From Rhodanobacter sp. PCA2 (GTDB lineage Bacteria > Pseudomonadota > Gammaproteobacteria > Xanthomonadales > Rhodanobacteraceae): a stretch of 64,000 bases of DNA. Both the position numbers and the translations under genes were made by a program. Location: positions 1 to 64,000 of the forward strand of contig NZ_NJIC01000008.1 in the NCBI RefSeq assembly GCF_013620825.1, written 5' to 3'. The notes beneath the pieces were generated by a model. It was not told the DNA's origin. It ran no database searches and saw only the letters and a program-made list of their open reading frames with translations. This document shows, in pieces, positions 29,997 through 46,448 of the stretch; positions within the stretch are counted from its first letter, which is position 1; every line of letters begins with the position of its first letter.

Positions 29997-30404
29997 TTGG
30001 ACAAGAACATGAAAATCCTGGTGGTGGACGACTTCTCCACCATGCGGCGCATCGTCAGGAACCTGCTGGTCGAGCTGGGTTTCAGCAATCCGCTGATCCA
30101 GGAAGCGGACGACGGCGAGAGCGCGCTGACCATGTTGCGCGGCCAGCCGTTCGACCTGGTGGTGACCGACTGGAACATGCCGAACATGACCGGCATCGAC
30201 CTGCTGCGCGTGATCCGCGCCGAAACCGCGCTGAAGGGCTTGCCGGTGCTGATGGTGACGGCCGAGAACAATCGCGACCAGATCATCGCCGCCGCCCAGG
30301 CCGGCGTGAACGGCTACATCGTGAAGCCGTTCACCGCGGTCACGCTCAAGGAAAAGCTCACCAAGATCTTCGAACGAATCGCCGCCAGCGGAGCCAGCGC
30401 ATGA
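29997..30404 (+). CDS. cheY: Chemotaxis response regulator CheY (set 1)
   Basis: Phospho-CheY binds FliM and changes rotation. The single receiver domain has the acidic pair in VVDDF, the phospho-acceptor in [12 protein letters not shown], the Thr in MVTAEN and the Lys in VKPF. The start is uncertain. A TTG at 29997 has GGAG seven bases upstream and gives [16 protein letters not shown], aligning with the enteric CheY start, whereas the ATG at 30009 has no ribosome site; an ATG at 29979 would add six residues. With the TTG the protein has 135 residues. It overlaps cheZ by four bases. Confidence 0.93.
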
Positions 30405-31042
30405 ATGCCGTACTTCCCCTCGCCGTGGACGAGAGCCTGCCGCCCGAGCTGCGCGAATTGCTGAACAGTCCGGACGGCCCCGCCTTCGAGCAGGCGCTGG
30501 ATGCGATGGTGCGCCAGCGCGAGCAGCACCTGTTCCGCGCGCTGGGCCAACTGGCGCGCGAACTGCACGACGCCGTGCGCCGCCTCGGCGGCGAGCTGGC
30601 CCAGGAAGGCGTGCCCGGCATCGTCGCCGACGCACGCCAGCACCTGCAGGACGTGCTGGAGATGAGCGCGAACGCCGCCAACCGCAGCATCGATTTCGCG
30701 GAACGCCTGCGGCCGCAGGCCGATTCGCTGGCGCACAACGCCGGCCAGCTCCTGCAATGGACCGGCGGCGACGAGCCGGCCGCCGTGCTGGCGCGCGAGG
30801 CTGCCGAATTTGCCGGGGACTGCCGCGCCGGCCTGGCCGACATGGTGCTGGCGCAGTCCTGGCAGGACCTCACCGGCCAGCGCGTCAAGAAGGTCGCCAG
30901 CTTCATCGGCACGGTCGAATCCTCGCTGCTGGAACTGGTGCGCCTCACCGGCGCGCTGGCCGTCGGCGAAGCGCCGGTCGACGTGGCGAAGGTGACCAGT
31001 CAGGAGGACGCCGACCGCCTGCTCAGCGAATTCGGGTTCTGA
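30401..31042 (+). CDS. cheZ: CheY-P phosphatase CheZ
   Basis: CheZ dephosphorylates CheY. The 213-residue helical protein has the active-site helix [13 protein letters not shown], with Asp156 and Gln160 at the catalytic D-x3-Q positions. It ends with the CheY-tethering peptide [13 protein letters not shown], equivalent to the LLDSLGF end of the E. coli protein. It sits between cheY and cheA in a tight operon. A similar D-x3-Q helix appears in the receptor-like protein at 45 kb. Confidence 0.95.
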
Positions 31043-37215: not shown

Positions 37216-37545
37216 ATGGCCGGCAAGCGGGCCGCGAAACGGGACGGCGAACAGATGGTGGGCGACGCCGCAGTGCGGTTGCCGCCGGACTGCCGCCTGG
37301 GCGCGCTGTCGGCGCTCCATGCCGAGCTGGTGGCGGCGCTGCCCGGCGGCGCCGTCGAGCTCGACGGCAGCCAGGTGGAACGCGTGGATACCGCCGCACT
37401 GCAGTTGCTGGTGCTGTTGTGCCGCGAGCTGGATCGGCGCGGCGGCACGCTGGCCTGGCGCGGCAGCAGCGCTGCCCTGGACGAGGCGGCCGGCCTGCTG
37501 GGCGTGGCGAAGATTCTGGAATTGCCGGCCGCCGGGCCGGCCTGA
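37216..37545 (+). CDS. STAS-domain protein, first gene of che operon 2
   Basis: The 109-residue protein is a single STAS domain: a strand-helix alternation with GGAVELDGSQVERVDTAALQLLVLLCRELDRRGGTLAWRG. The usual phosphorylatable DSSG loop of SpoIIAA-type antagonists reads VDTAAL, so a Thr replaces the Ser and phospho-control may be absent or altered. The ATG at 37216 is preferred because GGAG lies eight bases upstream and the promoter sits just before; the frame is open further up, but that would cross the promoter. cheY follows after 13 bases. A partner kinase or anti-sigma factor is not in the window. Confidence 0.85.
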   Translation: MAGKRAAKRDGEQMVGDAAVRLPPDCRLGALSALHAELVAALPGGAVELDGSQVERVDTAALQLLVLLCRELDRRGGTLAWRGSSAALDEAAGLLGVAKILELPAAGPA

Positions 37546-37558
37546 ACGAGGTGGCAGC

Positions 37559-37921
37559 ATGGCAAAGATTCTTGCGGTAGACGACTCCGCTTCGATGCGC
37601 GGCATGGTGGCCTTCACCCTGCGTGGCGCGGGGCACGAGGTGACCGAGGCCGAGAACGGCCAGCTGGCGCTGGACGCGGCCGGCGCGGGTGCGTTCGACC
37701 TGGTGCTGGCCGACGTCAACATGCCGGTGATGGACGGCATCGCGATGGTGCGCGCGCTGCGCGCCAGGCCCGAATACCAGGGGGTGCCGATCCTGATGCT
37801 CACCACCGAGTCGCACACCGAGAAAAAGATGGAAGGCAAGGCCGCCGGCGCCACCGGCTGGCTGGTCAAGCCGTTCGATCCCGACCAGCTGCTGGCGACC
37901 GTCAAGCGCGTGCTGGGCTGA
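37559..37921 (+). CDS. cheY: Chemotaxis response regulator CheY (set 2)
   Basis: This 120-residue single receiver domain has the acidic pair in LAVDDS, the phospho-Asp in LVLADVNMPVMDG, the Thr in MLTTES and the Lys in LVKPFDP. It belongs to the Pseudomonas CheY2-like branch, distinct from the motor CheY at 30 kb ([10 protein letters not shown]). It sits 10 bases before its own cheA. Whether it acts on FliM or as a phosphate sink cannot be told from sequence. Confidence 0.95.
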   Translation: MAKILAVDDSASMRGMVAFTLRGAGHEVTEAENGQLALDAAGAGAFDLVLADVNMPVMDGIAMVRALRARPEYQGVPILMLTTESHTEKKMEGKAAGATGWLVKPFDPDQLLATVKRVLG

Positions 37922-43852: not shown

Positions 43853-44944
43853 ATGGAAAGAGTACGCGTACTGGTAGTCGACGATTCCGCCCTGGTGCGC
43901 AAGCTGATGTCGACCATGCTTGCCTGCGACCCCGGGATCGAGGTCGTGGGCACGGCGGCCGATCCGCTGATCGCCCGCGAGAAGATCAAGCAGCTCGATC
44001 CCCACGTGCTCACCCTGGACGTCGAGATGCCGCGCATGGACGGCCTGACCTTCCTGGAGAACCTGATGCGGCTCAGGCCGATGCCGGTGGTGATGGTGTC
44101 GTCGCTGACCACGGATGGGGCCGAGGTGACGTTGCGCGCGCTGGAGCTGGGCGCCGTCGATTTCCTGGCCAAGCCCGGCAACGACCTGGCCTCCAGCTTC
44201 GGCGACAGCGCGCTGGAAATCTGCGCCAAGGTCAAGCTGGCGGCGCGGGCGAAGCCGCGCGCGCGCGCCACCGTACGCAAGCTGGAGGTGGTGCCGCGGC
44301 TCTCCGCCGATGCGGTGCTGCCGCGTTCGCAGGGTGCAGGCAGCCGCGGTGGCAGCCCCATCATCGCGATCGGCGCCTCCACCGGCGGCACCGAGGCGGT
44401 GCGCGTGGTGCTGGAAGCGATGCCGCCGGATGCGCCGCCCATCCTGGTGACCCAGCATATTCCCGCCGCCTTCAGCGGGCCGTTCGCCGCCCGCATGGAC
44501 CGCTGCTCGGCGATGCGCGTGTGCGAGGCGCGCGACGGCCAGCCGATCCAGCAGGGCCACGCCTACATCGCCCCCGGCAGCCACCATCTGCTGGCGATGT
44601 GGGACGGTGCCAGATACGTGTGCCGCCTGCACGACGGGCCGCCGGTGAACCGTCACCGCCCCAGCGTCGACGTGCTGTTCCGCTCGCTGGCGGCCAGCGC
44701 CGGCGCCGCCACCATCGCCGCCCTGCTCACCGGCATGGGCGACGACGGCGCCCGCGGCCTGCTCGAACTGCGCCAGGCCGGCGCACCCACCCTGGTGCAA
44801 GACGAGGCCAGCTCGGTGGTGTGGGGCATGCCCGGGGCCGCCTGGAAACTGGGTGCGGCGGCGGAGACGTTGCCGTTGGACCACATCGCCGGCCGCCTGC
44901 TCGCGTTGGCCCGTCGCACCCATGCCAGCACCATTTGCGCCTGA
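43853..44944 (+). CDS. cheB: Chemotaxis methylesterase CheB
   Basis: CheB removes receptor methyl groups when phosphorylated by CheA. The 363-residue protein joins a receiver domain (Asp56 in [15 protein letters not shown] switch Lys) to an esterase domain with the catalytic Ser in [11 protein letters not shown], His in [10 protein letters not shown] and Asp in [12 protein letters not shown]. The ATG at 43853 gives [19 protein letters not shown]. It is 70 bases after cheD and 14 bases before the receptor-like gene. Confidence 0.97.
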
Positions 44945-44958
44945 ACACGGATTCCACC

Positions 44959-46137
44959 ATGTCACTCATTCCCGCCATTTTTCGCAGGCGTCCGCTGGCA
45001 GGCTGGACCGCTAGCGTCGTCGCCCTGCTGCTGACGCTGCTGTGGCATCCGGCCTGGCTGGCGCCGATCCTGCTGCTCGCGGTGACCGCGGTGTGGGCCG
45101 TCGTCGCACGTACCCGGCCGCCGGCCGCGCCGGCCACCGTCGTGCCTGTCGGCGCCGAGCCGGTGCGCGAAGCGCTGGAGGACGTGCGCAGCGCGCTGGT
45201 CGACGAGCTGGGCCACGCCAGCCGCGAGTTGCACCAGGGCCTGGACCTGCTGCGCGACGCGGTGTCCGAGCTGGGCGGCGGCTTCGACGGACTGTCCAGC
45301 AAGACCGCGCTGCAGCAGGCACTGCTCAAGCAGATCATCGACGCCCAGGATGGCGGCGTATCCGTGCAGGACTTCGCCGCGCGCACCGGCGACCTGCTGG
45401 AACACTTCGTGGGCCTGATCGTGCAGATGTCGCGCGAAAGCCTGCGCATCGTCTACCGCATCGACGGCATGGCGAAGGAGATGGACGCGGTGTTCGGCTT
45501 GCTGCGCAACGTCAACACCATCGCGGAGGAGACCAACCTGCTGGCGCTGAACGCGGCGATCGAGGCGGCGCGCGCAGGCGAGTCCGGCCGCGGCTTCGCG
45601 GTGGTGGCGGGCGAGATCCGCAACCTGGCCAGCAACTCCAACCAGCTCAACGAGCGGATCGGCGACCACGTGGAGCGAGCCCGGGCGGCCATGGAGCAAC
45701 TGCGCGGCCTGATCGGCGCGATGGCGTCGCAGGACCTCAACGTGGCGCTGTCGGCCAAGGGTGGCATCGACGCGATGACCGCCCACGTCACCGAGAGCGA
45801 CGCGCGCACCGGCAAGGTGGCCGACAAGGTGGTCGAGATCAGCCGCGGCCTCGGCAGCGACGTTTCCACCACCGTGCGCTCGCTGCAGTTCGAGGACATC
45901 CTGCGCCAGCTGATCACCCAGACCCGTACCCGGCTCACCGAGCTGCAGGAAATCACCACCGAGTGCACCCGCGACATCGAGGAACTGGCCTGCGCCACGC
46001 TGGAAGCCGACGCGCTGGAGGAGCGCTCCCGGCGCGTACGCAGCCGGCTGGCGATCCAGCGCGAGAAGGCGCGGCTGCGCTCGCGCGGCCCGGCGCTGCA
46101 GAACTCGATGGATGCCGGCGAAATCGAACTGTTTTGA
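44959..46137 (+). CDS. Receptor-like signalling protein with CheZ-like motif
   Basis: The 392-residue protein has two closely spaced N-terminal membrane helices (about 15-29 and 33-50) with almost no periplasmic part, no HAMP domain, and a shortened receptor signalling domain. The hairpin tip is [38 protein letters not shown] (188-225). After it, [13 protein letters not shown] (309-321) places Asp313 and Gln317 in the D-x3-Q arrangement of CheZ, as in the CheZ of this window (SWQDLTGQ). It ends in GEIELF. It lies between cheB and a STAS gene. It may be a cytoplasm-facing receptor, a CheY phosphatase, or both; the function is inferred. Confidence 0.7.
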
Positions 46138-46148
46138 GGATCGTCCCC

Positions 46149-46448
46149 ATGATCGTCCACCACGACCCCGAACTCGACTGCCTCACCCTGCAATTGGGCG
46201 AGCGTTTCGATTTCAGCATTCACCGCGACTTCCACGACGCCTGTCTCGGCGGGGACAAGCCGGCACGCAGCTATGTGATCGACCTGGGCGCGGTTGCCGC
46301 CATGGACAGTTCGGCGCTGGGCATGCTGTTGCTGCTGCGCGAGTACGCCGGTGCCGATCGTGCCGACATCCGCATCGTCAACGCCGCGGGCGAACTGCGC
46401 AGCACCTTGCGCGTGGCCGGCTTCGACAAGCTGTTCGTGCTGCACTGA
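46149..46448 (+). CDS. STAS-domain protein, last gene of che operon 2
   Basis: The 99-residue single STAS domain retains the canonical loop AAMDSSALGMLLLLREY (about 57-73), where anti-anti-sigma proteins are phosphorylated on Ser. It starts 11 bases after the receptor-like gene with GAGGA upstream. It differs from the STAS protein at the other end of the operon, which lacks the Ser. No HATPase-type anti-sigma kinase is encoded nearby, so its partner is unknown. Confidence 0.88.
   Translation: MIVHHDPELDCLTLQLGERFDFSIHRDFHDACLGGDKPARSYVIDLGAVAAMDSSALGMLLLLREYAGADRADIRIVNAAGELRSTLRVAGFDKLFVLH

Follow-up and report, generated by a model that had tools for sequence, protein, structure and literature searches.

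The 392-amino-acid protein encoded directly downstream of cheB in this stretch of DNA is likely to be a phosphatase of phosphorylated CheY (CheY-P) that works in the manner of CheZ and carries a chemoreceptor tip. Given its strictly conserved CheZ-type signature and the soluble relatives encoded beside cheY, it probably supplies the off-switch so far missing from a chemosensory system that is widespread and little understood. A phosphatase role had been raised in the initial annotation of the window, meaning the whole 64,000-nucleotide stretch that was analysed, and this interpretation now draws support from sequence comparison: a CheZ-like motif adjoins the two key residues, the tail is conserved, soluble homologues lie beside cheY, and some genomes hold the module with no CheZ match. 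The features of the gene and its product are as follows.

44959..46137, + strand: gene for the McpA-like, chemoreceptor-shaped putative CheZ-type CheY-P phosphatase (open reading frame with ATG start, 392 aa)
44995..45111, + strand: membrane hairpin, approximately residues 13-51 (two helices in a low-confidence model, one segment in a hydropathy scan)
45157..45345, + strand: helix A of the putative phosphatase module, approximately residues 67-129 (boundaries approximate, low confidence)
45451..45849, + strand: MCPsignal hairpin with intact tip, residues 165-297 (Pfam; tip columns invariant in an 87-locus alignment)
45859..45993, + strand: helix B of the module, approximately residues 301-345 (model; boundaries approximate, low confidence)
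45880..45909, + strand: CheZ-like (A/S)xxF(Q/E)DxxxQ motif with D313 and Q317, residues 308-317 (alignments and motif counts)
46087..46134, + strand: conserved C-terminal tail, residues 377-392, proposed as a CheY-binding peptide (conservation; function inferred)

Pfam placed the MCPsignal domain (model positions 22-150 of 172) at residues 165-297 and found neither a sensor domain nor, as had been stated before, a HAMP domain; the strict 10-residue methylation consensus is likewise absent from the protein, and these three absences set it apart from canonical chemoreceptors (MCPs). The receptor tip had been described as truncated, which does not hold: the tip sequence, which in canonical MCPs binds CheA and CheW, is intact and conserved, and the stalk is the part that is short. 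Two adjacent membrane helices, also claimed initially, reappear in a low-confidence model at residues 13-28 and 34-51, and a crude hydropathy scan flagged a single hydrophobic segment in this N-terminal hairpin region. AlphaFold models computed from 46 and 42 close relatives reached a mean pLDDT of 56.5 for the whole protein and 55.6 for residues 66-392, respectively. At this low confidence they depict a protein that is helical almost throughout and interrupted near residues 130-135 and 281-300, a layout compatible with helices A and B lying outside the tip hairpin. A sequence search of solved structures returned 13 matches up to E 10, with no chemotaxis protein among them.

We propose that helices A and B, which flank the tip hairpin, would assemble in a dimer into a CheZ-like four-helix bundle. 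The tail would capture CheY-P, D313 would help to position CheY, Q317 would position the attacking water, and the receptor tip would dock the enzyme into the chemosensory array. In CheZ, the aspartate helps to position CheY and the glutamine positions the attacking water. The likeliest substrate would be the CheY of the protein's own operon (37559-37921), which is otherwise without a known phosphatase. The genes that bear on this assignment are the following.

37559..37921, + strand: set-2 CheY, the proposed substrate (PF00072)
43853..44944, + strand: CheB, directly upstream of the 392 aa gene (cluster annotation)
46149..46448, + strand: STAS-domain protein, directly downstream of the 392 aa gene (cluster annotation)
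30401..31042, + strand: canonical set-1 CheZ, used for comparison (D156, Q160; PF04344)

The set-2 cluster runs in the order STAS (ending at 37545), CheY (from 37559), CheA (from 37932), CheW (from 40013), a TarH/HAMP receptor, CheR, CheD, CheB, the 392 aa gene, STAS and a glpK-like carbohydrate kinase. In the genome of the same organism, PF04344 matched in set 1 only, where it recovers the 213 aa CheZ (E 1.6e-27, site SWQDLTGQ), and neither CheC nor CheX had a match anywhere; set 2 is therefore without a recognised phosphatase, which bears out the initial remark that the second operon lacks cheZ, cheC and cheX. As a separate observation, the set-2 CheY has W before VKPF and V after the phosphorylated Asp, where the set-1 CheY has Y and W, respectively. 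We take these two positions to be important for FliM binding, and the set-2 CheY, judged by these residues, may possibly not act on the flagellar motor.

By its gene order and C-terminus, the 392 aa protein appears to be an 'McpA-like receptor' of an F7 chemosensory system. The accessible part of PMC7184735 gives cheB, mcpA-like gene, STAS as the order of F7 stage 1, and the set-2 cluster follows the stage 1 order except that a TarH/HAMP receptor and a single cheW were seen. According to the same portion of that source, stages 1 and 2 have cheY, lack cheZ and nearly all hold an mcpA-like gene; in stage 3 the mcpA-like gene is lost and an F6 cheY/cheZ pair is kept. It further describes the McpA-like C-terminus as highly conserved, without a CheR pentapeptide and of a role left unexplained, and reports that deletion of the McpA-like receptor leaves F7 arrays unaffected (PMC7184735). 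The published McpA-like F7 'receptors' (VCA1088, PA0180/CttP and SO_2117) share with the 392 aa protein the order cheB, gene, STAS, as well as the receptor tip, the MCPsignal domain, the membrane region, the conserved C-terminus without a CheR pentapeptide, and a V or I where that pentapeptide has an aromatic residue. They differ in having been published, in the portions of the sources available, as chemoreceptors of unclear role, with no phosphatase role proposed. Our literature search, with most subscription papers and bioRxiv outside its scope, likewise found no phosphatase proposal for McpA-like proteins in titles or the openings of abstracts. A syntenic homologue from Vibrio sp., 31% identical and again in the order cheB, gene, STAS, reads LQFTDIIVQ and ends in EGEVELF.

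D313 and Q317 have the same spacing as D156 and Q160 of the set-1 CheZ, as was noted at the outset. A D...Q pair is expected by chance 0.86 times per shuffled 392 aa sequence; the motif alone thus proves nothing, and it is conservation and context that carry the argument. The idea that DxxxQ is significant by itself was rejected on this count. We also rejected LQFEDI as a general receptor feature: a degenerate DNA pattern for it had one exact match in the organism's own genome.

The initial annotation had proposed an alignment of homologues to see whether D and Q are invariant. In an alignment of 87 loci (that of the window, L126-L151 and L248-L307, with one gene held by two loci), D is present in 87/87, Q in 87/87 and the final F in 86/87. 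Of the 17 columns that are fully invariant across these loci, 15 belong to the tip; the remaining two are D313 and Q317. Outside this alignment stand the receptor-shaped loci L157, L159 and L309-L315 and the soluble or truncated loci L152-L156 and L158. The nine receptor-shaped ones keep D in 9/9 and Q in 8/9. The exception is L159, a 291 aa reading frame in which R replaces the putative catalytic Q (SEDVVRR, end GDVELF), possibly a decayed homologue.

Other samples agree. Both residues are kept in 30/30 loci, namely the window gene and 29 from a relatives search, down to 31-37% identity. LQFEDI followed by the Q is found in 80/80 loci, these being the best 80 of 505 from a collection scan and mostly from Rhodanobacter, Dyella, Frateuria and Luteibacter. 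Among 31 divergent sequences, receptor-shaped and soluble, the only invariant positions of the last 112 residues are Q, D and Q, plus the F at the end. QxxDxxxQ occurs in 229/231 distinct module segments, a set that favours conserved members because it was gathered with profiles of the module itself. The tails of family members end in a conserved LF or FF; that of the 392 aa protein ends in GEIELF.

The accessible part of PMC7750401 describes CheZ as having AXXFQ before DXXXQ, plus a conserved C-terminal CheY-binding region. At the position of AxxFQ the 392 aa protein reads SLQFE. The relaxed form [AS]xxF[QE]DxxxQ is present in 185/231 module segments and the strict form A..FQD...Q in 2/231. 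The relaxed form matched 27 times in 4,267 other reading frames of the same loci, and 24 of the matches are CheZ; the 4,267 were taken in all frames, are partly spurious and include CheZ loci fetched on purpose. On a helical wheel (102.86 degrees per residue), D is turned 117 degrees and Q 168 degrees away from the hydrophobic face, compared with 143 and 165 degrees in CheZ, and we estimate from this that D313 and Q317 are on an exposed side of the helix, as in CheZ.

Profile comparison pairs D and Q of the module with those of CheZ at E 0.00064 for the mixed set (hhalign probability 28%) and at E 0.0041 for the soluble set (8%). In local reruns the module scored 27.3 and 25.7 against CheZ, and the maxima over 100 column-permuted CheZ profiles were 23.2 and 19.2; column permutation is a lenient null because it destroys helix periodicity. 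The better controls are reversed CheZ, against which the module scored 15.3 and 18.2 in local reruns, and generic receptor segments, which scored at most 15.6 against CheZ. From these profile scores, the likeness between the module and CheZ appears specific but weak. The Pfam CheZ family had no match to the whole protein or to residues 66-392 up to E 1, or to the C-terminal half up to E 10, and the NCBIfam CheZ family had none to the 392 aa protein.

Set beside CheZ as a whole, the 392 aa protein shares the (A/S)xxF(Q/E)DxxxQ motif with D and Q estimated to be exposed, a predicted helical make-up, an acidic-hydrophobic C-terminus ending in F and a gene placed among che genes. Unlike CheZ, it has a receptor tip and a hydrophobic N-terminus and no PF04344 match; it has E rather than Q before D, and the TG that precedes Q in CheZ is missing. 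The tails, VDxLLxxLGF in CheZ versus GEIELF here, have no sequence match. The CheY-P phosphatases CheC, CheX and FliY, whose fold and motif are other than those of CheZ, carry out the same reaction as the one proposed.

A further reading would have the protein bind CheY-P through its tail and module with no catalysis, serving as a sink, a tether or an adaptor to the array or to a STAS partner switch. The acidic-hydrophobic, conserved C-terminus would suit a docking peptide, and STAS genes are its neighbours; however, binding alone would not need an invariant, exposed DxxxQ in CheZ spacing with a preceding aromatic residue, and we regard this reading as very unlikely.

A different D...Q occurs in ordinary receptors: in 72/75 generic receptor reading frames, the operon's own receptor included, MDxxTQ stands exactly 105 residues past the point where the tip motif begins. 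These 75 were picked for having no QFxDxxxQ and are therefore uninformative on the frequency of that motif. The D of the window family stands 120 residues past the same point in 162/163 reading frames (close relatives included), which puts MDxxTQ on the same helix, 15 residues closer to the tip. A joint gapped alignment brings the D of MDxxTQ within one column of the window family's D in 24/27 cases. Given the receptor MDxxTQ and this alignment, a link between the D...Q of the module and an ordinary receptor feature is possible. The DxxxQ could then have a structural part in the coiled coil and perhaps a relationship to MDxxTQ, and its resemblance to CheZ could be fortuitous, as the one D...Q expected by chance and the modest CheZ profile scores would also allow. 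Against this stand the module's scores with generic receptor segments, which reach 19.7 at most and are lower than those with CheZ; the two printed profile alignments of the module with generic receptors, in which the two D...Q are unpaired; and Q-F-x-D-x3-Q itself, which is exposed by helical wheel and retained in proteins that have no tip. We hold this structural explanation to be highly improbable.

Relatives of about 150-200 aa, soluble and with neither a hydrophobic helix nor a tip, keep Q-F-x-D-x3-Q and the LF end and match the window family by profile at E 2e-15. Thirteen of 19 fetched soluble genes, all from distinct genomes, are located in che clusters. Ten of the 19 (L219-L224, L230 and L316-L318) directly adjoin a cheY that best matches the set-2 CheY. 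L229 and L234 come directly after cheB, the slot held by the 392 aa gene, and L231 lies between STAS and cheR. Since the slot after cheB holds either a receptor-shaped or a soluble form, an exchange of function between the two is suggested. The other six soluble genes (L225-L228, L232 and L319) are in no che cluster. Five of these, L225-L228 and L319, read FQFYDxxxQR and end in DDIELF, and the scanned neighbours of L225 and L226 are housekeeping genes. The small soluble proteins had no family match above cut-off among nine searched in NCBIfam and seven in Pfam; the nine gave one weak CheZ match in NCBIfam, at E 0.011 and far below cut-off. A tblastn search of plasmids with one soluble form returned no match.

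The architecture varies further. The module and the LF end are present in 22/22 loci from elsewhere in the phylum (L197-L218), none with a hydrophobic segment in the scan. Complete readings of five of these show a variant tip (NVLALNARIVAARAGEAGR) in two, while the other three (L201, L204 and L212, 331-350 aa) have both protein ends and the D...Q module around a middle with no recognisable receptor tip. The seven weakest class matches fetched (L309-L315, 403-435 aa) read LQFQDxxxQ and end in LF or FF; a set-2-type cheY directly adjoins the gene in 7/7, and cheA is in the fragment in 6/7. Judged by sequence, these are at least one distinct subfamily directly beside cheY. Receptor-shaped proteins of 400-445 aa (L241, L243, L247 and L309-L315) show LQFQD[MRT]xxQ and terminate in, for example, VELF, ITFF or VQFF.

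These architectures bear on the reading closest to the published one, in which the protein is a true but unusual chemoreceptor of the McpA/CttP type that sits in the F6 array and signals via CheA, with D and Q serving packing or partner binding. Its tip is intact, the tip columns are invariant, and the D lies at a nearly fixed distance from the tip. In the accessible part of PMC9855816, the Shewanella oneidensis homologue co-clusters with CheA3, the F6 kinase, and is interpreted as a chemoreceptor; its overproduction raises swimming as other MCPs do, and its deletion has no effect on swimming. The portion of PMC7534058 available links CttP to trichloroethylene taxis. On the other side, the sensor domain, HAMP and methylation consensus are all absent, the module and tail persist in soluble homologues that have no receptor part, and the three reading frames without a recognisable tip keep both. 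We consider a pure receptor unlikely. The CheA3 and CttP data would also suit a phosphatase that docks into the F6 array, in which case the F6 CheY could be the target.

The distribution of the module relative to CheZ was also surveyed. Another 59 receptor-shaped loci were examined with about 3 kb on each side: 45 have a che-core or STAS gene there, 14 have neither, and CheZ is seen in 0/59. Across 369 genomes of the class, PF04344 matched in 154, and the C-terminal half of the 392 aa protein was detected in 90 (class-wide search, E 1e-5). CheZ is also present in 80 of these 90 genomes, and ten had no CheZ match. Eight of the ten were checked further and gave no CheC and CheX in one, with the qualification that draft genomes may hide genes and that CheA had no match in G272, which is among the eight. 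In G304, which is 97% complete, there is one CheA match and a soluble form after cheB in its cluster; CheZ, CheC and CheX had no match in this genome, and the soluble form was the only candidate phosphatase found.

More broadly, we lean towards the view that these proteins form a second branch of CheZ-type CheY-P phosphatases in Proteobacteria, which would have been the ancestral off-switch of F7 systems, with the tip siting the phosphatase in the array, and would have disappeared once F7 adopted the cheY/cheZ pair of F6. The branch would comprise anchored receptor-shaped (McpA-like), unanchored receptor-shaped, tip-less long and small soluble proteins. If this is true, it would give the McpA-like proteins a role in F7 systems and account for the conservation of their C-terminus with no CheR tether, and F7 stages 1 and 2, described with cheY but no cheZ, would gain a phosphatase (both as presented in the accessible part of PMC7184735). 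A group of proteins that genome surveys list as chemoreceptors would then consist of enzymes, and the small proteins beside cheY would gain a function.

Longer proteins (583-1051 aa) from elsewhere in the phylum (L235-L240, L245 and L246) contain stretches resembling LQ-x-GD-x-TRQR-x-EHV, which also include a DxxxQ, and have mostly acidic C-termini; by these stretches they are possibly further phosphatase-like proteins.
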